Shown piece after piece: positions 2,437 through 38,743 of a stretch of DNA of 38,743 nucleotides. The stretch comes from a virus: the IMG/VR virus record IMGVR_UViG_3300050821_001417, positions 1 through 38,743 of that record. One strand, 5' to 3'. Numbering within the stretch: the stretch's first letter is position 1; each line of letters opens with the position of its first letter. Made by a program: the position numbers and the translations under genes. The notes below the pieces were generated by a model. It was not told the origin of the DNA. It searched no databases and saw nothing but the letters and a program-made list of their open reading frames with translations.

Positions 2437-5400
2437 ATGTTACAAAAACAAGCAGTCTCAGTCAATTTTGCACAGGGCATCAATACTAAGTTAGATCCTT
2501 GGCAGCTTCCAGTAGGACAATTCCAGTCCTTAGTAAATTCTATCTTTACTACAGGTCAACAATTGCGAAAACGCAATGGCTATATGGAACTTTCTGCATT
2601 GCCGAATGTAACGTATACATATTTAACCACTTTGAACAACAATTTGACTGCTCTTGGCTCAAATATAGCGGCCTATAACGAAACTTCTAGTACTTGGGTG
2701 CCAAAAGGTACGATTCAGCCTATGCAGGTATCTACTTTACCTGTAATTCGCAATACTTTGAATCAAACTCAGTGCGATTCTGTGATTGCATCCAATGGTT
2801 TGATGCTCGTAACGTATGATGAACTGAATAATTCGACTACAACATATAAATATGCACTTTTAGACTCAGTTACTGGTCAAAATATAGTTGCTCCAACTGC
2901 AATTCCTGCAATTGCTAGTGGAACTATCGCAGCTACCTCTAAGCCATACATAGTTGGAAGTTATTTCGTCGTCATAACCCCCGTTACGGTATCTGGAACC
3001 ACATATCTACAGTATTTTTCGATTCCTATAACTCTTCCTGCAACTGTACCTACTCCAGTAAAAGTTACAACAGAAGCTTACATTGCAACCTACACGAATC
3101 CTGGTTGGGACGCTGCTGTTATCAATAACTCATCGAATAATGCCATGGCCATAGCGTATAATACGACTTCTGGCGGTCAAGGCGTACATGTTGCGTCGTT
3201 AACACTTTCACAGATTGCCAATGCCCAAACTACTAGTGGAATTCATGATTTTACCAATGCAGCCTATAAAGGCTCTTTAGTTTCAGTATGTGTAGACGTT
3301 TCAAATCCTACAAGTCCTCTATTTTACATTTCATTTTGGAATAGTTCTAACAGCAATGCCTATACGGCTGCTGTATCCATAAGCGTCGGGGTTATCACGG
3401 CAGTTTTTACACCGCAGTTAATAGCTTCTTCAATTACTCTGGACAACATAACATCTGCTGCTACTGGCGGTTCAGCCACCGTTTTTGGTGATGTCGCAAA
3501 TACATATGGTTACGATGGAAGCATTGCCACAAATTTCATTGATGCCGTAACGGTTTCTAGCGCTGGAGCTGTGGGAACTCCTTTTGTTTCTTTGAGAAGT
3601 GTTGGCTTAGGATCAAAAGCATTCGTATTGAATGGCTCCATATATTATTTAGCCCTATATTCAAGTTCTTATCAGCCTAGTTATTTTCTAATCAATGGAT
3701 CTACCAGCACAGAATATGCGCCTGTTATTGTAGGTAAATTAGCCTACGAAAATGGTGGTGGGCCATTGATTCTTGGATTGCCAAATGTAACTGTTGCTGG
3801 GTCTGTTGCCCAAGTTACTTATCTCTATAAAGATTTCGTTACTACGTGGGATTATATAAATGATTCACAACAAAATGCAACTCCACCTGTCTATAGCCAA
3901 ACTGGCATAAACCTAGGCACTTTTGATTTCACCTCTTCTGGAATTGATACCGCAGAGATCGCAAATACGCTTAATCTTTCTGGTGGATTCTTAGGCATGT
4001 ATGATGGTTATCTACCTGTAGAACATAACTTTTTCCTGTGGCCTGATTACGTTGAGGCGACTACTGCCACTGGAAGTGGCGCTATCACAGCACAGCAATA
4101 CTATTATCAAGCCATCTATGAATGGACAGACAATGCTGGCAATATTCATCGCAGTGCCCCAAGTATCCCTATAACTATTACAACTACTACTTCTTCGTCG
4201 ACCAATACGATCTATGTTCCTACATTACGTTTGACTATGAAGACTGCCAATCCAGTGAAGATCATCCTTTATCGTTGGTCTACGGCAAATCAGGTTTACT
4301 ATCAAGTGACAAGTGTCACAGCACCTACACTGAATTCTACGTCAACAGATTACGTGACTATCACAGATACTCTTGCCGATTCATCTATCGTTGGCAATTC
4401 TATAATTTATACAAATGGTGGAGTCATTGAAGATGTCAATGCTCCAGCTACCAATATAATATCCTTGTTCGATACCAGACTTTGGATGGTCGATGCTGAA
4501 GATCCAAATCTCTTGTGGTATTCAAAACAAGTTATTGAGGCCGTTCCTGTAGAGATGTCAGATCTTTTAACTTACTACATCGCTCCCAACACAGGAACCA
4601 CGCAAAGTACGGGGCCAGTAACTGGCCTTGCGCCCATGGATGATAAATTAGTTATTTTCAAGCGTGATAGTATTTTTTATATAAATGGCTCAGGTCCAGA
4701 CAATACTGGCTCTAACAGTCAATATTCGCAGCCTATCTTTATTACTTCTACAGTAGGATGTGTTGACCAATCAAGCATAGTCTTGATGCAAAATGGTTTG
4801 ATGTTCCAATCTGACAAAGGTATCTGGTTACTGGGACGAGATCTATCAACACAATATATTGGCGCAAACGTAGAGGCTTTTAATTCTAGTACTGTAAATA
4901 GTTCAAATAACATTCCAGCCACCACACAGATTCGTTTTACGCTGAGCACTGGTCAGACTTTGATGTACGATTACTATTATCAACAATGGGGTACCTTCAA
5001 AGGCGTTCCAGCAGTTAGTTCATGTATCTATCAAAATTTACATACGTTCATAAATGGAAGTGGACAGGTATTTCAGGAAACTCCTGGAGTCTACATGGAT
5101 GGTCCAAATCCTGTTTTAATGTCGTTCACGACCTCATGGTTGAATCTTGCAGGCTTACAGGGCTACCAACGTGCGTACTTCTTCTATATCTTAGGACAGT
5201 ATCTTACGCCGCACAAATTGCAGCTTGAGATTGCCTATAACTATAATTCGGCCATCGTGCAATCTTCGTTGATTACGCCAAATAACTTCAGTTCTTCGCT
5301 ACCCAGCGCATTCGGTGTTCCTACTCCATTTGGATCAGTTACCAACGTAGAGAACTGGCGCGTGTTCTTGGCTCAACAACGATGTCAGGCATTCCAGATC

Positions 5401-21362: not shown

Positions 21363-21852
21363 ATTACTACAAATGATTCCTTGGCAAAAAATCGTAGACT
21401 ACATATCTCAATGGCTATCCAAACCAGAAGTCGTAGACGTGGCACCACAACAAATAACACTTAAATTGGTTCGTAAAGAATTTCGTGAAGATGGTATCTT
21501 CTCGGAACTCCAAAAACTCGATGGGACGTTGATAGCAAAAATTGGCGAACATAGTTATTCAAAGTTATCAAAAATTCCAAACGGAATGTATACCTGTGTA
21601 AAAGGCATGCATCGATTGGAACATATGACAGAAGATTTCGAATGTTTTGAAATTACAAATGTACCTGACCATACAAATATACTGATACATAATGGTTCAT
21701 ATTGTCAAATTGACAGCTCAGGCTGTTGCCTTATAGGTGCATCTACTGCAATCGTAAATGGGACGCAGATAATAGTTTTAAGCAAAATAACATTTGCAAA
21801 ATTTATGGAAGATATGGCTGACATTAAGTCTTTTATACTGATAGTTTCTTAA
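21355..21852 (+). CDS. DUF5675-like protein (possible cell-wall or lysis function)
   Basis: This 165-residue protein matches the DUF5675 pattern. Residues 36-81 give LKLVRKEF...IPNGMYTC, and residues 109-128 give ILIHNGSYCQID plus SSGCCLIG. The His-Asn and Gly-Cys pair is reminiscent of the active-site region of L,D-transpeptidase folds, but I cannot establish catalysis. Residues 1-22 are an amphipathic or hydrophobic N-terminus (LLQMIPWQKIVDYISQWL) that may associate with membranes. No conventional endolysin is recognisable in the genome, and this gene sits just after a holin-like gene. It is therefore the best available candidate for a wall-directed protein. Confidence 0.7.
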   Translation: MNKLLQMIPWQKIVDYISQWLSKPEVVDVAPQQITLKLVRKEFREDGIFSELQKLDGTLIAKIGEHSYSKLSKIPNGMYTCVKGMHRLEHMTEDFECFEITNVPDHTNILIHNGSYCQIDSSGCCLIGASTAIVNGTQIIVLSKITFAKFMEDMADIKSFILIVS

Positions 21853-22301
21853 AGTAAATGTTTCCATATTTTATTATTTACTATTGCGCTTATAACAGAA
21901 GTAGATATACCGAACTCTTTTGCTAACTTATGTCCATTACCAAAACGATACCTGCTTCTAATTTCCAGAACATCTTCATCAGTCAATTTGGACATTCCAT
22001 GTTTTGTTCCCATAAATTTTACTTTATGAAATTTGCTTCGTTTTTTATTGCCCATATCTCGCATATTTTCAGCATTAGTACCAAGAAATAAATGGTCAGG
22101 ATTAACGCAAGAAGGGACATCACATGTGTGACACACCAATAGGCCATTTGGTATAGGTCCTTTGTGCATTTCATATGAAAGCCTATGTACTCGTTTAGCT
22201 TTTTGATTTACATTAAAATATCCACGTCCTGTTTCATCTTTTGCAGCAGTCCATAGCCAACAGGTTTGTGTCTTATTAACTTTATCCCAAAATCGTTTCA
22301 T
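21849..22301 (-). CDS. HNH homing endonuclease
   Basis: This 150-residue protein opens with FWDKVNKTQTCWLWTA and has RVHRLSYEM (H39, R40). The core is VCHTC..PSCVNPDHL, with H58, N67 and H70 in an HNH fold and C57, C60 and C65 as likely metal ligands. A C-terminal helix-turn-helix (LTDEDVLEIRSRYRFGNGHK, then FGISTSVISAIVNNKIW) would read DNA. This is the free-standing HNH family common in phages. It is the last gene of the leftward operon, overlaps its upstream neighbour by 4 nt, and meets the rightward DUF5675-like gene tail to tail with a 4-nt overlap. Confidence 0.88.
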   Translation of the reverse strand: MKRFWDKVNKTQTCWLWTAAKDETGRGYFNVNQKAKRVHRLSYEMHKGPIPNGLLVCHTCDVPSCVNPDHLFLGTNAENMRDMGNKKRSKFHKVKFMGTKHGMSKLTDEDVLEIRSRYRFGNGHKLAKEFGISTSVISAIVNNKIWKHLL

Positions 22302-23200
22302 AATATCTCTTCAGCCAACGCACCCAGTTTCGTAAAAGTATTCATATACCGATCCAAAGTGAGATTCTCGATAAATAAATCTCTATTTGAGATACATGTT
22401 GACAAGAGATTTTGGACATCATGATCGCCTGGTTCCCATCTATCTATAGTATTTTCAATTGTTAAGAACCATTCAACGTTTTTCTTCTCCACTTTCTTGG
22501 ATTTTTTAGGTTTCTCAGACATAGACATAAATGGATTCTGTCTGTAAACCAGGTCCTGCATTCGTTCAGCAGAATAAAGTTCTCTTAACATGGCTATCTG
22601 ATTCTGTGAGCTAGCATATGTCTGAGGTGGAGAACCCGTATATTCTACTATACAACCTACATCATTGCAATTTTGAATAACGACATTGTGATTTGGTTCT
22701 TGAACGAGCATCTGACCTTGGCCCATCAAAAGCATATCGGTTTGTATCTCTTGAATCATCTGGTTAGTTCCCTGTTGCATCTGCTGCATAGCTTCTTGAT
22801 GAAAGGCGCCTTGTTGCATCTGTTGATTCTGCATTGCAGCAGCCTGTGAATGCTGAGACATAGCATTTTGGGAATTTTGTTCCGCAGCATTATTGGCTGC
22901 TTGGCTTTGATTCAAATCTCGACCAAGGATAAGACTATAAGAATCCCCTAACATTCCCCACGGCATATTATTCCTTTGCGTTGGTGGTTCCACTTCTTCC
23001 CAATTATCTAAAGATGCTTCTATCACAGGCAAGACTTCTGATTCAAGTCGAATCCAGCTCTCAATAAAGGATTCATAAGGTCGGCGTGAGTTACGAGCCT
23101 CTTCGATCAATTCATAATGGGCTGTAGGACTTATTAATAAAAGGTCGCCCAATTTATAATATTGGGTTCCTAAAAGATAAATATCGGAACGAATAAGCAT
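22298..23200 (-). CDS. 300-residue protein with a capsid-arm mimic and Gln-rich linker
   Basis: The N-terminal domain (residues 1-95) is unrecognised. Residues about 97-160 are Gln, Asn, Met and Ala rich and low in complexity. Residues 194-227 match the N-terminal arm of this phage's own capsid protein, sharing TYA.S.NQIA.LRELY, then M, VY, NP and M in the same order; by eye 19 positions are identical once a two-residue gap is allowed. A Lys-rich linker (EKPKKSKKVEKKN) leads to a C-terminal helical domain (residues about 240-300). No other capsid sequence is present, so it is not a capsid pseudogene. It could bind a capsid partner such as scaffold or portal. The gene is in the leftward operon, not the virion module. 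Confidence 0.8.
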   Translation of the reverse strand: MLIRSDIYLLGTQYYKLGDLLLISPTAHYELIEEARNSRRPYESFIESWIRLESEVLPVIEASLDNWEEVEPPTQRNNMPWGMLGDSYSLILGRDLNQSQAANNAAEQNSQNAMSQHSQAAAMQNQQMQQGAFHQEAMQQMQQGTNQMIQEIQTDMLLMGQGQMLVQEPNHNVVIQNCNDVGCIVEYTGSPPQTYASSQNQIAMLRELYSAERMQDLVYRQNPFMSMSEKPKKSKKVEKKNVEWFLTIENTIDRWEPGDHDVQNLLSTCISNRDLFIENLTLDRYMNTFTKLGALAEEIL

Positions 23201-24560: not shown

Positions 24561-25343
24561 TTATTCTCCAAACAATTCTAGTAACATTTTCTTGGCAGCC
24601 AAGTGAGCCTCTTCTTCTGTGGCATAATAGCCAGCGTTGTAAGTTTTACCTTTACGACTAAAGTTTCCAAACCATTTATTTCTAGCAGTTTCGGGAACAT
24701 GGGTCAAAAATGTTGCTCCCCATAATCCTAGTCCTATCCTGACGTTATCACGTCTATTACGCATATTAACACTTAACTCACATACACGCAAGTTGACCTT
24801 GCGATTATCCAAGGTTTGACCATTGATATGGTCTGTTGTTTCATTTTTACCAGAATGTCTGAACTGTGTATTCATTATATATCTGTGAACACCAAATTTT
24901 GTAGGAGTACCATGTGTTATTTCTTCTTCATAAGCGTGACGTGTTGGATAAATAACGCCAACATAATTCCCTGTTCTTCTAGGCGTGCTAGCATGCCATT
25001 TAAACTGCATGACATTTTCGTAGTCTTCTTTATCCACGATGAAATGTGTATCGTCAGTATAAGAATTAGTCGAAAAAGGCACTAAAGCCATTGTCTCAGG
25101 GTTATAGATAGAGGCTAATGTCGGCGGAGTTGGCTTAGGATGAGCTTCAATATACTTTTTACGTTTTTCTTGTTGACGTTTATTTTGAAAAATTCTTATC
25201 TTATCTCTATTATTAGAATTCCAAATTTTGTTAATGGCATTGTTGCAAATTTTACAACGAGCATCGTAACCACTTTTACGCTGTTTATTTTTAGTAAATT
25301 CTACCAAAGGTTTAATACCTAGGCATTTTGTACATTTTTTCAT
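24561..25343 (-). CDS. HNH homing endonuclease with N-terminal zinc finger and C-terminal AP2 domain
   Basis: This is a 260-residue protein. C4, C7, C30 and C33 form a zinc-finger-like start. Residues 103-195 are an HNH nuclease of the phage type: DKEDYENVMQFKWHAS, then VHRYIM (H153), then DHINGQTLDNRKVNLR (D171, H172, N174, N180) and NMRNRR. Residues 207-256 (WGATFL, then NKWFGNFSRKGKTYNAGYYA, then EEAHLAAKKML) are an AP2 DNA-binding domain. It overlaps the upstream winged-helix-like gene by 4 nt. It is a free-standing homing endonuclease, probably a mobile insertion in the operon. Confidence 0.9.
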   Translation of the reverse strand: MKKCTKCLGIKPLVEFTKNKQRKSGYDARCKICNNAINKIWNSNNRDKIRIFQNKRQQEKRKKYIEAHPKPTPPTLASIYNPETMALVPFSTNSYTDDTHFIVDKEDYENVMQFKWHASTPRRTGNYVGVIYPTRHAYEEEITHGTPTKFGVHRYIMNTQFRHSGKNETTDHINGQTLDNRKVNLRVCELSVNMRNRRDNVRIGLGLWGATFLTHVPETARNKWFGNFSRKGKTYNAGYYATEEEAHLAAKKMLLELFGE

Positions 25344-25819
25344 AGGTTTCCCTCTTTCTTTGGATATTCTTCTTTAAAATTATCTCGATTCAGCGCACTT
25401 GTCAAATCCAGTAAAGATTTAGTAGAATCTAGTACATCTAGTACGTGTGTCTGTGGGGAGGGGAAGTCACTCCCTGGGGAGGGGAAGTGTGTCTGTGGGG
25501 AGGGGAAGTGTGTCTGTACAGAGGGGTTTTTTGACTTTTGTAATTTTTCTACGTTTAAAATCATGATAGGAATATGACTACCCTGTGCTGTTGGGTAATA
25601 TTTACCACTATACATTATGAAGCCTTTTTTCTCAATTCCTCGCATGGCTCTACGAATATTGTCTTTGCGCATTTTATGTAAAAAGGTATGTATCCTAGTA
25701 GCACCAGCATGATAATCAGGAGCATCCATAAACCACATTGTAAAAACTTTAAATTCTGAATAGTTTAATTCTTCAGCGGCTAGGCTTAGCCAATATTTTG
25801 AGTTTGGTATATCTTTCAA
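25340..25819 (-). CDS. Winged-helix-like DNA-binding protein, candidate replication initiator
   Basis: This 159-residue protein leads the leftward operon. Residues 1 to about 93 fit a winged helix: ELNYSEFKVFTMWFMDAP, then TFLHKMRKDNIRRAMRGIEK as a recognition-helix-like region, then the wing GFIMYSGKYYPT. Residues about 99-125 are tandem QTHFPSP-type heptapeptides encoded by 21-bp DNA repeats. A 34-residue charged tail follows. A DNA-binding domain, repeats in the coding sequence and a short tail are also the plan of lambda O, whose gene contains its origin iterons. A transcription regulator is the alternative. No other replication gene is visible in the genome. Confidence 0.65.
   Translation of the reverse strand: MKDIPNSKYWLSLAAEELNYSEFKVFTMWFMDAPDYHAGATRIHTFLHKMRKDNIRRAMRGIEKKGFIMYSGKYYPTAQGSHIPIMILNVEKLQKSKNPSVQTHFPSPQTHFPSPGSDFPSPQTHVLDVLDSTKSLLDLTSALNRDNFKEEYPKKEGNL
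25447..25530. repeat. Four tandem 21-bp repeats (iteron-like, G-rich), candidate origin
   Basis: The units are 25447-25467, 25468-25488, 25489-25509 and 25510-25530. Units 1 and 3 are identical: GTGTCTGT then GGGGAGGGGAAGT. Unit 2 matches at 16 of 21 positions and unit 4 at 15 of 21. A period of 21 bp is two helical turns, the usual spacing of initiator-binding iterons. AT-rich stretches flank the array on both sides. Six GGGG runs on the + strand could also form G-quadruplexes. On the - strand the units encode QTHFPSP, so a purely protein-level repeat is the competing reading. Confidence 0.75.
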
Positions 25820-25823
25820 AAGA

Positions 25824-25880
25824 ATCTCCCGCCCGTAGGCATTGCGTTAGTGAGAACGCCTGCTCACTCAAGCGGGAGAT
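25824..25880. repeat. Inverted repeat in the leader of the leftward operon
   Basis: The arms ATCTCCCGC (25824-25832) and GCGGGAGAT (25872-25880) pair perfectly. The inside holds two mutually exclusive small stems: AGTGAG with CTCACT (25849-25854 and 25863-25868), or GCGTT with AACGC (25844-25848 and 25855-25859). It lies just upstream of the start of the winged-helix-like gene, so it would be part of that mRNA leader if transcription starts further right. It could be an RNA switch, an operator, or a barrier between divergent transcripts. Confidence 0.6.
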
Positions 25881-30067: not shown

Positions 30068-30096
30068 TGTCTCAAACTGAGACAGTGTTTTTACAA
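30068..30096 (+). terminator. Palindrome with T-rich tail, probable terminator of the rightward operon
   Basis: TGTCTCA-AAC-TGAGACA is a perfect 7-bp dyad starting two bases after the last stop of the operon. It is followed by GTGTTTTTACA. Stem, short loop and T-run fit a weak intrinsic terminator. The same words recur seven more times downstream without T-runs, so it may also be an operator for a dimeric regulator. Confidence 0.5.
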
Positions 30097-30586
30097 CTCA
30101 AGTCCATTATAACTGAGCTGAAGCGCGTTTTATGACAGTATTGTATTGAAACGTTGTCTAACGAGGCGCTTGCGCTCTGAGACACCATAACGTCAGCTTA
30201 TATTGTCTCATTCCGATACTATAAGCGCTTCTTATATTGGCTCAGTTTGAGGCGTGAGACACTATAAGCCTGTCTTATAACGCTGTCTCAATAGCCAGAA
30301 TGGTACGTCTCAATATGAAATTAATACACTTTAACCAAAATACATGGTACAATAAGGGAGTGGCGGGTGGGGGTCACACCTTAAATTCAAGCTTTTGTCC
30401 CAGGGTCTATGTGTCTTTAAATCGATCTGGGGTTTCCTGCAACGTATTCGATCTCATCTTGACGGTATTGGTTGCCGCATCAGTTCAAAACCTGGGCCAA
30501 AACCTACTGTCTGGTCTGGTTATTGCAGAGGGAAACCCTGTGTCTCTATATCAAACGTATCAAAATGAGACAATGCTCGGGCCAGA
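30097..30586. promoter_or_regulatory. Gene-free control region upstream of the terminase gene
   Basis: No convincing gene lies here. A frame of 102 codons from 30300 has no ribosome site and overlaps the terminase start. The left part is repeat-rich. TGAGACA or TGTCTCA sites occur at 30178, 30204, 30255 and 30284, with near copies at 30306. CTTATATTGTCTCA (30197) and CTTATATTGGCTCA (30231) are a direct repeat. GATACTATAAGC (30215) and ACACTATAAGC (30259) resemble T7/SP6-type start regions, and CATTCCGATACTAT at 30210 overlaps the late-element core. The right part (30350-30560) lacks repeats I can see and could hold a packaging site. The last TGAGACA is at 30566. Confidence 0.6.
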
Positions 30587-32367: not shown

Positions 32368-33170
32368 TGCCGCTAATTAAAGGAAAATCTCCCAAAGCCT
32401 TTTCTAAAAATGTCGAAACCGAGATGCACGCTGGAAAGGGACAAAAGCAAGCCCTTGCAATCGCTTATTCCATGAAGAAGAAAGCCAAGAAAATGGCTAA
32501 AGGCGGAGATCCACAAGATCCTGTCGAAGACTCTCGCGAGCAGTCCCACGCACACGAATCGGACATGGTTGATTCCATTCCAGAAAATGATGAACATCCT
32601 ATGAAATCTCGTAAAGAACGAATGCTGGAAGCTTTTCATAAATATGCTGAAGGTGGACAGATCAAAGATAACTATCAATCGCCAGACAAACCCCACGTCG
32701 ACATGGCTATGATCGATCCTCAAGACGAATATGATCCGATGCATCCTGGCAATGACGTAAAGCACAATGAATCCGCAGAAGAAGAATCAGCTCGAATGCT
32801 CAATCAGCATGGAGAACACGAAGAAGGTCCACAAGGCCCCAGAATGGCTGAAGGTGGACAGATCAAAGATAACTATCAATCAGAGGCTCATATGGAAGAC
32901 ATGGTTGGTCGCATAATGAAGATGCGTCAACAGATGTACTCTGAAGGTGGAAGAGTTGCAAATGAAACAGATCAAGATGCAGCAGGCGAAAAACCTAATC
33001 AGTTCGACGATCTGGTACTTCGTGATGATCTCGAATCGACCTATGGCGAAGACGATAATGCTGGCGATGACATAGGAAACAAACAAGAAGATCATGATCG
33101 CGAAGATATGGTTGCTCGTATCATGAGATCGAGAAGCAAATCCAGTGGTAAGCCTCCCTATAAAGCATAG
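32367..33170 (+). CDS. Acidic head-operon protein with repeated [Y/M]A[E/K]GG motifs
   Basis: This is a 267-residue protein. The N-terminus MPLIKGKSPKAFSKNVETEM continues to the QKQALAIAYSMKKKAKKM helix, a module seen in many phage proteins. MAKGG (43), YAEGG (93), MAEGG (160) and YSEGG (191) are the same short motifs as in the three internal-virion-type proteins. EDMVGRIM (177) and EDMVARIM (246) are a second internal repeat. The rest is highly acidic and probably disordered. Motif sharing suggests it is a virion protein that meets the same partner as the internal proteins. Start coupling is by a one-base overlap. Confidence 0.7.
   Translation: MPLIKGKSPKAFSKNVETEMHAGKGQKQALAIAYSMKKKAKKMAKGGDPQDPVEDSREQSHAHESDMVDSIPENDEHPMKSRKERMLEAFHKYAEGGQIKDNYQSPDKPHVDMAMIDPQDEYDPMHPGNDVKHNESAEEESARMLNQHGEHEEGPQGPRMAEGGQIKDNYQSEAHMEDMVGRIMKMRQQMYSEGGRVANETDQDAAGEKPNQFDDLVLRDDLESTYGEDDNAGDDIGNKQEDHDREDMVARIMRSRSKSSGKPPYKA
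32646..32881 (+). repeat. Exact 35-bp direct repeat within one gene
   Basis: The 35 bases at 32646-32680 recur at 32847-32881, 201 bp apart and in the same frame. They encode AEGGQIKDNYQS both times. Exact identity at the DNA level, including silent positions, points to a recent internal duplication or gene conversion rather than protein-level selection alone. Recombination between them would delete 67 codons in frame. Confidence 0.9.
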
Positions 33171-36435: not shown

Positions 36436-37731
36436 ATGGCTATCGCTCCAACATACGCAAATAGTTCTAACCAGATTGCAGCCCTCAGAGAGTTATATAC
36501 GGATGACAAGGACTATATGAAAAATATCGTGTACGCTAAAAATCCGTGGCTCGCCATGGTACCCAAAAATGAGTCACCAGATGGCTTTGCTGGAAAATAT
36601 ATTCCAGTCCCGCTAGAATATGCTAACCCTGCTGGTCGCGCGCACGTCTTCGCTAACGCGCAAAACCAACAAACGGCAAGTTCTGTTATCTCGTACTTCG
36701 TGTATGCGATTCAGGATTATCAACTCGTAACGATCACTAACCTCTTGATGGAACAAACTAAGTCCAATGCAGGAGCATTCGTCGATGAAGCTTCGCGCAC
36801 CATGGATAATGGTTTCCGTAACATCTCAAACAACATGGCTTTTGAGCTTTTCTCTGGTGGTACTGCTTCACGCGGTGTTATCTCGACTGCTTCTTTGGCT
36901 TCTAGTGTTGTAACGATTCAGTTGTCCAATCCGCAAACGGTTGTGCAATTCGAAGTCGGCATGACCCTTCAAAATAGTGCTACCGATGGTGGCGCAGCTC
37001 TCTTGGAAAGTTCTGTAATTGATGCTATCCAACTTACCTCTGTTAACCGTGGTACTGGCGTAATTGTCGGTTCTGTTGTTCAAGGTACGGGCGCATCATT
37101 CGCAACTGGCAACTTCTTGCAAGTTCTTGGTGACATCGGCTCTGCTGGTGCATCGACTATCGCTGGATTGCTTGGTCTTTCTGGAATGGCAGCTTGGGTT
37201 CCGTCGTCTGATCCTGCATCGAACGATAATTTCTGGGGAGTTAATCGTTCTGCAGATCCCACTCGTTTGGCTGGTCTCAGATACAATGCTTCGGCACAAA
37301 GTATCTCGGAAGGTGTTACTAACGCATTAGCTTTGGCTAACCGTGAAGGCGCAGCTCCTGATTTGCTCCTGATCGATTTCGTATCGTATGCAACTTTGAT
37401 CAACGAACTCGGCGCGAAAGTGCAGTATGTTCAGCTTGATCACGATGAAGTCGAAGTTTCTTTTGAAGCTATCCACTTCCATTCTGCTTATGGCAAGATC
37501 CCAGTGTTGGCTGATCGTTCAGTTCCTGCACAAACTTGCTACGCAGTAACAACGGATTCTTTCAAACTCCGTACCCTTGGAAAAGCACCTCACGTGTTGA
37601 CTTATGGTATGGAAGGTCTCGAAGGCCTCCGCGTCGGTACTGCAGACGCACTTGAGATTCGTATCGCGTACTACGGAAATCTGATTTGTAGCGCCCCCGG
37701 TTACAACATGTGGATTCAACTGTCTGCATAA
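36436..37731 (+). CDS. Major capsid protein
   Basis: This 431-residue protein has an N-terminal arm (MAIAPTYANSSNQIAALREL), then an E-loop-like region (GKYIPVPLEYANPAG and the following 40 residues), then a beta/alpha core ending MEGLEGLRVGTADALEIRIA, consistent with the HK97 fold. It would form the icosahedral shell. AAGGAA precedes the ATG by about 8 nt. An intrinsic terminator follows. The arm segment TYA.S.NQIA.LRELY is mirrored in the leftward-operon protein at 22298-23200. Confidence 0.88.
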   Translation: MAIAPTYANSSNQIAALRELYTDDKDYMKNIVYAKNPWLAMVPKNESPDGFAGKYIPVPLEYANPAGRAHVFANAQNQQTASSVISYFVYAIQDYQLVTITNLLMEQTKSNAGAFVDEASRTMDNGFRNISNNMAFELFSGGTASRGVISTASLASSVVTIQLSNPQTVVQFEVGMTLQNSATDGGAALLESSVIDAIQLTSVNRGTGVIVGSVVQGTGASFATGNFLQVLGDIGSAGASTIAGLLGLSGMAAWVPSSDPASNDNFWGVNRSADPTRLAGLRYNASAQSISEGVTNALALANREGAAPDLLLIDFVSYATLINELGAKVQYVQLDHDEVEVSFEAIHFHSAYGKIPVLADRSVPAQTCYAVTTDSFKLRTLGKAPHVLTYGMEGLEGLRVGTADALEIRIAYYGNLICSAPGYNMWIQLSA

Positions 37732-38693: not shown

Positions 38694-38721
38694 AAAAACC
38701 CCGTCTTCGTATGGGGTTTTT
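38694..38721. terminator. Intrinsic terminator spanning the circular junction
   Basis: AAAAACCCC and GGGGTTTTT pair across a 10-nt centre (GTCTTCGTAT), with a further G-T and T-A pair possible. The T-run gives termination rightwards and the A-run leftwards, so it may work both ways. It separates the decoration-type gene from the adaptor gene. The right arm and loop appear again at positions 1-24 because of the terminal overlap. Confidence 0.85.
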
Positions 38722-38743
38722 CATTTAAAGGAAACAGATGTCA
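38698..38743. repeat. 46-bp terminal direct repeat, right copy
   Basis: These bases are identical to positions 1-46. The ATG at 38738 is the same start codon as at position 41, so the adaptor gene appears here as a two-codon stub. It should not be annotated as a separate gene. Confidence 0.9.

Follow-up and report, generated by a model that had tools for sequence, protein, structure and literature searches.

Four 21-bp repeats inside an orphan early gene as the likely replication start site of an uncultured phage

The DNA analysed here, referred to as the window, is the whole of the 38,743-bp virus record IMGVR_UViG_3300050821_001417, which comes from an uncultured phage of soil or freshwater. 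The window begins and ends with the same 46 bp, repeated exactly (1-46 and 38698-38743), and the genes flanking the end junction are neighbours in sister phages. We conclude from the terminal repeat and from this synteny across the contig ends that the genome is complete. The terminal repeat also contains a terminator-like hairpin (ACCCCGTCTTCGTATGGGGTTTTT).

The gene of interest, ORF 25340-25819, opens the leftward early operon. Across a gap of ~180 bp it diverges from a rightward operon that runs to the terminase and structural genes. Its TTG start is preceded, 6 nt upstream, by the Shine-Dalgarno sequence GGGAG, and the features in and around it are listed in Table 1. The early leftward operon also carries two HNH endonuclease genes (21849-22301 and 24561-25343), the second of which immediately follows the candidate initiator, its start overlapping the initiator stop. 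In a further early leftward gene (22298-23200), a segment near the C-terminus resembles the N-terminal end of the probable major capsid protein (36436-37731; 38% identity over 63 aa, BLASTP E 1e-9); a piece of the capsid protein has apparently been copied into this gene.

Table 1. Features of the candidate initiator gene and its surroundings (positions in the window)
Feature	Position	Strand	Basis or sequence
Candidate replication-initiator gene	25340-25819	-	159 aa, TTG start, ORF call
N-terminal helix-turn-helix/winged-helix-like domain, residues 1-95 (putative)	25535-25819	-	weak profile matches
21-bp unit 1	25506-25526	-	CCCCTCTGTACAGACACACTT, coding strand
21-bp unit 2	25485-25505	-	CCCCTCCCCACAGACACACTT, coding strand
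21-bp unit 3, inner part divergent	25464-25484	-	CCCCTCCCCAGGGAGTGACTT, coding strand
21-bp unit 4	25443-25463	-	CCCCTCCCCACAGACACACGT, coding strand
Short charged C-terminal tail, ~33 aa, candidate host-replisome contact	25343-25442	-	translation; function inferred only
AT-rich low-stability flank, N-terminal side, candidate unwinding region	25531-25610		weakest 1.8% of 50-bp windows
AT-rich low-stability flank, C-terminal side	25306-25442		weakest 1.6% of 50-bp windows
mRNA leader hairpin pairing the Shine-Dalgarno GGGAG (25826-25830)	25824-25880	-	RNA folding

The ORF contains four 21-bp tandem units, as the earlier note had claimed. The best register is 25443-25526 on the plus strand, 4 bp off the 25447-25530 given there. 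The array occupies codons 98-126, and its 21-bp phasing corresponds to two helical turns. It is the genome's top tandem array by TRF (score 111; the entry scoring 75 is the same array, followed by one of 58) and also ranks first by lag identity (0.78; runner-up 0.64). Its self-identity was 49/63; when the codons of the gene were shuffled 20,000 times, the highest value obtained was 36. A search of the window for near-copies with up to three mismatches found matches inside the array only (0 expected). No hairpin within the array was more stable than in shuffled sequences, and no Rfam match was obtained.

The array DNA itself forms a stable helix, unlike its flanks. The AT-rich DNA that had been noted around the array was borne out, the least stable 50-bp stretch on each side falling in the genome's weakest 1.6-1.8%; an unstable AT-rich flank of the kind expected of an active replication origin is thus present on both sides. 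The flank on the C-terminal side also holds two copies of a 9-bp repeat, ATCTAGTAC, at 25427-25444. Upstream of the gene, the leader hairpin had a minimum free energy of -33.6 kcal/mol (z -4.0), and none of 200 shuffles was as stable. Its position over the Shine-Dalgarno sequence, ahead of the TTG start, suggests that translational control is likely.

The G-rich character of the plus strand raises another reading, in which pairs of GGGGAGGGG fold into a quadruplex and act through it on replication or transcription without any iteron-binding protein. Seven of the 31 plus-strand runs of at least four G lie in the 84 bp of the array, and their pattern would let four tracts form a quadruplex whose central loop has 12 nt. 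However, unit 1 lacks one tract, and ACAGACACACTT, for which a quadruplex would have no need, also belongs to the conserved part of the unit. We consider this reading highly improbable.

The codons of the array are atypical (lowest 0.3% of windows; CCC, TCC and CAC are rare codons), and GC3 is 66% in the array versus 25% in the remainder of the gene, but since the units are copies of each other only about seven of these codon choices are independent. All four copies share one reading frame and differ non-synonymously, so that slippage may have produced a peptide repeat. Because of the single frame and the lack of a homologue, selection at the DNA level and slippage or a peptide repeat are inseparable in the window.

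We compared the 159-aa protein with several collections. Pfam yielded no family at E 0.1, including PF04492 (replication protein O) and RepA_N, and there was neither an NCBIfam match nor a convincing PHROG match. The models phrog_186 and phrog_428 (DnaD-like/O-like), which several sister phages match, found nothing in the window genome (G000), nor did the HTH_36 profile (PF13730). No homologue was detected in phages or plasmids (tblastn), in viral contigs, in 62 sister records or in 399 Burkholderiales genomes. Two Burkholderiales matches were rejected as relatives, as they covered the repeat peptide only, in spurious frames. The exact 19-mer of the repeat was absent from the viral contigs searched, and BLASTP of the protein against the initiator of sister phage G032 gave nothing. 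The protein is an orphan, with relatives in none of the collections searched.

Two comparisons gave a weak signal. When all 104 ORFs of the window were aligned by hhalign with two independently built winged-helix initiator profiles, the 159-aa protein ranked first, although the probabilities were as low as 2.8% and 5.5%; the aligned part was a putative recognition helix (residues 51-71). A PHROG helix-turn-helix profile also matched weakly (E 0.079). AlphaFold2 modelled the protein with a pLDDT of 38 from the single sequence and of 69 from a two-sequence alignment. With the latter model, Foldseek returned nothing at E < 0.001 and VIA-align nothing at Z >= 8; phage neck and pilus proteins headed the matches. 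The winged-helix-like character previously assigned to residues 1-95 therefore agrees with the weak PHROG and hhalign signals and found no support from structure comparison by Foldseek and VIA-align; judged from the sequence, it is plausible. The ORF probably encodes a DNA-binding protein.

Searches with terminase and portal proteins gathered sister phages that belong to a large uncultured family. Their portal proteins are 65-76% identical to that of the window phage, and the gene order of the late region is shared, while the early regions are not conserved among the sisters. The portal protein of the family had no match in 50,697 cultured-phage records. Among GTDB genomes the portal profile found nothing, and the terminase profile found one phage contig in a Burkholderiales MAG, which gives a weak hint that the host may belong to the Burkholderiales. 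Many sisters carry long microsatellite arrays in small early-region ORFs (L006, L009, L010, L012, L015, L004; periods of 6, 9, 12 or 18 bp, up to ~380 bp), which the window phage lacks.

Seven of the sisters examined have recognisable O/DnaD-like initiators, all unrelated to the 159-aa protein, and the DnaB_C helicase model matched in 8/34 sister phages. No helicase, polymerase, primase or other initiator was recognisable in the window genome in PHROG scans of nearly all ORFs and Pfam/NCBIfam scans of part of them. This supports the earlier claim that the genome shows no other replication gene, although the absence is weak evidence because many of the ORFs have no known function.

GC skew had been expected to place its cumulative minimum near 25.4 kb. 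The raw minimum lay instead at 5346, 18.6 kb away. This failure matters because the raw minimum falls within 1.2 kb of the initiator gene in five of seven sisters. Raw skew is, however, shaped by gene orientation and local composition. When skew was calculated from four-fold (synonymous) sites only, with strand means subtracted, it was significant in none of the genomes tested, neither the window nor the sisters. The skew test is thus weak, and the corrected skew neither supports nor refutes an origin at the array.

Repeats also cluster at a second place, 30068-30572, where the DNA ahead of the large terminase gene is mostly non-coding and contains seven copies of TGTCTCA/TGAGACA in both orientations. 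The same segment holds three 22-nt copies of GACACTATAAG..TCTTATA. If this were the origin, the array inside the gene would be secondary or autoregulatory. In favour of an origin here, 505 bp without a conserved gene contain 7 of the 15 copies in the genome, and whole-genome shuffles never gave 15 copies. But the cluster adjoins the terminase gene, as packaging sites often do, no comparable cluster was present upstream of the terminase in 21 sister records, and helix stability across the segment is ordinary. A packaging or regulatory site fits it better, and we regard an origin there as improbable.

We compared the array with the genes of 17 winged-helix initiators, which were picked by protein profile or protein BLAST, blind to repeats (seven from sister phages, one from the Burkholderiales MAG phage contig and nine from annotated phages). 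Clustered 10-mers were counted in each gene and compared with codon shuffles. In 11 of the 17, at least three clustered copies were found, a count reached by no more than 3/60 shuffles. The clusters lie almost all at about codons 91-150 (in G032 extending to 178), directly after the DNA-binding domain. Ten of these 11 genes have their copies in two or three reading frames, which indicates that the DNA is kept while the peptide differs. Copies repeatedly stand 11 or 22 bp apart (in phi575, Lc-Nu, KLEP17-4 and L165). With three initiators lacking repeats (G036, G008, SL25) and three borderline (SP276, G016, G049), such repeats are common but not universal. For the background level, a similar count was made on 805 ORFs of 120-360 aa from these genomes; three copies were reached by 61, among them many microsatellite ORFs.

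Individual cases illustrate the multi-frame pattern. Sister phage G032 has the motif TGTCAAAATGACA in two frames, which translate it as CQNDT and as VKMT, and homologous initiators of Staphylococcus phages retain a variant of this motif in different frames. At 32529-32707, within its DnaD-like initiator gene, G032 (IMGVR_UViG_3300032893_000184) has six copies of TGTCAAAATGACACGATC in two frames, a motif that Staphylococcus phage initiators share. The initiator gene of G025 carries three copies of ACGGACCAAATTG, one in each of the three frames. The window array matches the comparison clusters in position and has a 21-bp spacing, but its copies keep a single frame, and the in-gene iterons of G032 are a cleaner example.

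These comparisons also bear on the possibility that the gene encodes a helix-turn-helix protein regulating transcription from the divergent early promoters, the repeat (QTHFPSP) being a disordered, slippage-expanded peptide linker with no role as a DNA site. The place of the gene, at the head of the leftward operon and ~180 bp from the divergent rightward one, would suit a regulator, as would repeats in one frame with non-synonymous differences; moreover, the helix-turn-helix similarity is generic, and no homologue turned up among initiators. On the other hand, the placement and helical phasing of the array match those of in-gene arrays in real initiators, its codon choice is atypical (with the caveat of about seven independent positions), and a regulator would leave the genome without any recognisable initiator. 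We therefore consider a regulator unlikely.

Of the readings weighed, we find most likely that ORF 25340-25819 is an orphan member of the known class of phage initiators with in-gene iterons (lambda O, DnaD-like), and we favour this assignment with some reserve, as it is based on architecture and comparison and not on homology. The four 21-bp repeats are likely the replication start site of the phage. The repeats lie inside the candidate initiator gene, directly after the putative DNA-binding domain, as in that class, whereas known initiators have C-terminal domains far longer than the ~33-aa tail, which we counted against the assignment. Of the lambda-O-like interpretation in the earlier note, the architecture stands, being common to most of the winged-helix phage initiators examined, including those of the sisters, with precedents in lambda and pSK41; it is weakened by the missing homologue, a fold that structure prediction did not confirm, the skew minimum elsewhere, the single-frame repeats and the second cluster at 30068-30572.

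By analogy with lambda, DnaD-like phages and pSK41, the N-terminal domain of the candidate initiator would bind the 21-bp repeats in its own gene. Four units of two helical turns each would place the protomers on one face of the DNA, so that the array is wrapped and bent, and one of the AT-rich flanks beside it would melt. The charged tail, or a bound host factor, may in turn recruit the host's DnaB helicase and replisome; one of the unassigned early proteins or a host factor may help the ~33-residue tail in this. Translation of the initiator would probably be held low by the hairpin over the ribosome-binding site.

A bolder version is that the protein represents a minimal, undescribed initiator type, in which a helix-turn-helix domain, an origin-coding linker and a ~33-residue tail suffice to recruit the host replisome, the 38.7-kb phage having no further replication protein of its own. 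We put this forward tentatively and hold it to be rather doubtful. If the initiator assignment is true, an origin and its initiator have been located in a large uncultured phage family, and so short a tail would provide a compact model for the hijack of a host helicase by an initiator. The recurrence of multi-frame in-gene repeats in unrelated winged-helix phage initiators may furthermore serve as a sequence-only origin test in phages without cultured relatives.

Several known systems place repeats within a replication gene. In Francisella phage KIRK, putative origin repeats lie in the replication-protein gene Fhv_0043, which has an internal peptide repeat (PMC7924643). In contrast to the window protein, Fhv_0043 has 240 aa and a replisome-organiser-like neighbour, and the KIRK origin is likewise only predicted. 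The Rep protein of pSK41 (RepA_N) binds four boxes located centrally within rep by its winged helix-turn-helix, and the protein stretch encoded there is a dispensable linker (PMC5703833). The window gene shares with it the four in-gene units, which here follow a putative N-terminal domain of this kind (PMC5703833), but pSK41 Rep has 319 aa and a C-terminal domain that binds DnaG, and the window protein has no Pfam match.

The DnaD-like/O-like initiators (PHROGs 186, 428 and 678) resemble the window gene, whose own winged-helix domain is putative, in having in-gene repeats directly after that domain at helical-turn spacing. Examples are those of Staphylococcus phages phi575 and fPfSau02, Lactobacillus phage Lc-Nu, Pseudomonas phage KLEP17-4 and sister phage G032. 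Their repeats run through several frames, unlike the one frame of the window array, and the window protein misses their PHROG models. Their C-terminal regions are ~90-200 aa long, often with an adjoining loader or helicase gene, compared with the ~33-aa tail in the window.

Lambda O shows no sequence similarity to the window protein and is longer, with a C-terminal part that binds P; the window unit, at 21 bp and largely without dyad symmetry, also differs from that of ori-lambda. In lambda O the N-terminal DNA-binding part precedes the repeats, the same order as proposed for the window protein. The origin of lambda and Stx phages lies in the middle of gene O, where four or six iterons are accompanied by an AT-rich region, and in lambdoid O genes, iteron base changes that were neutral for the protein abolished plasmid replication (PMC7466680). 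The window locus resembles this arrangement in its four repeats inside a candidate initiator gene and in its AT-rich flank (PMC7466680).
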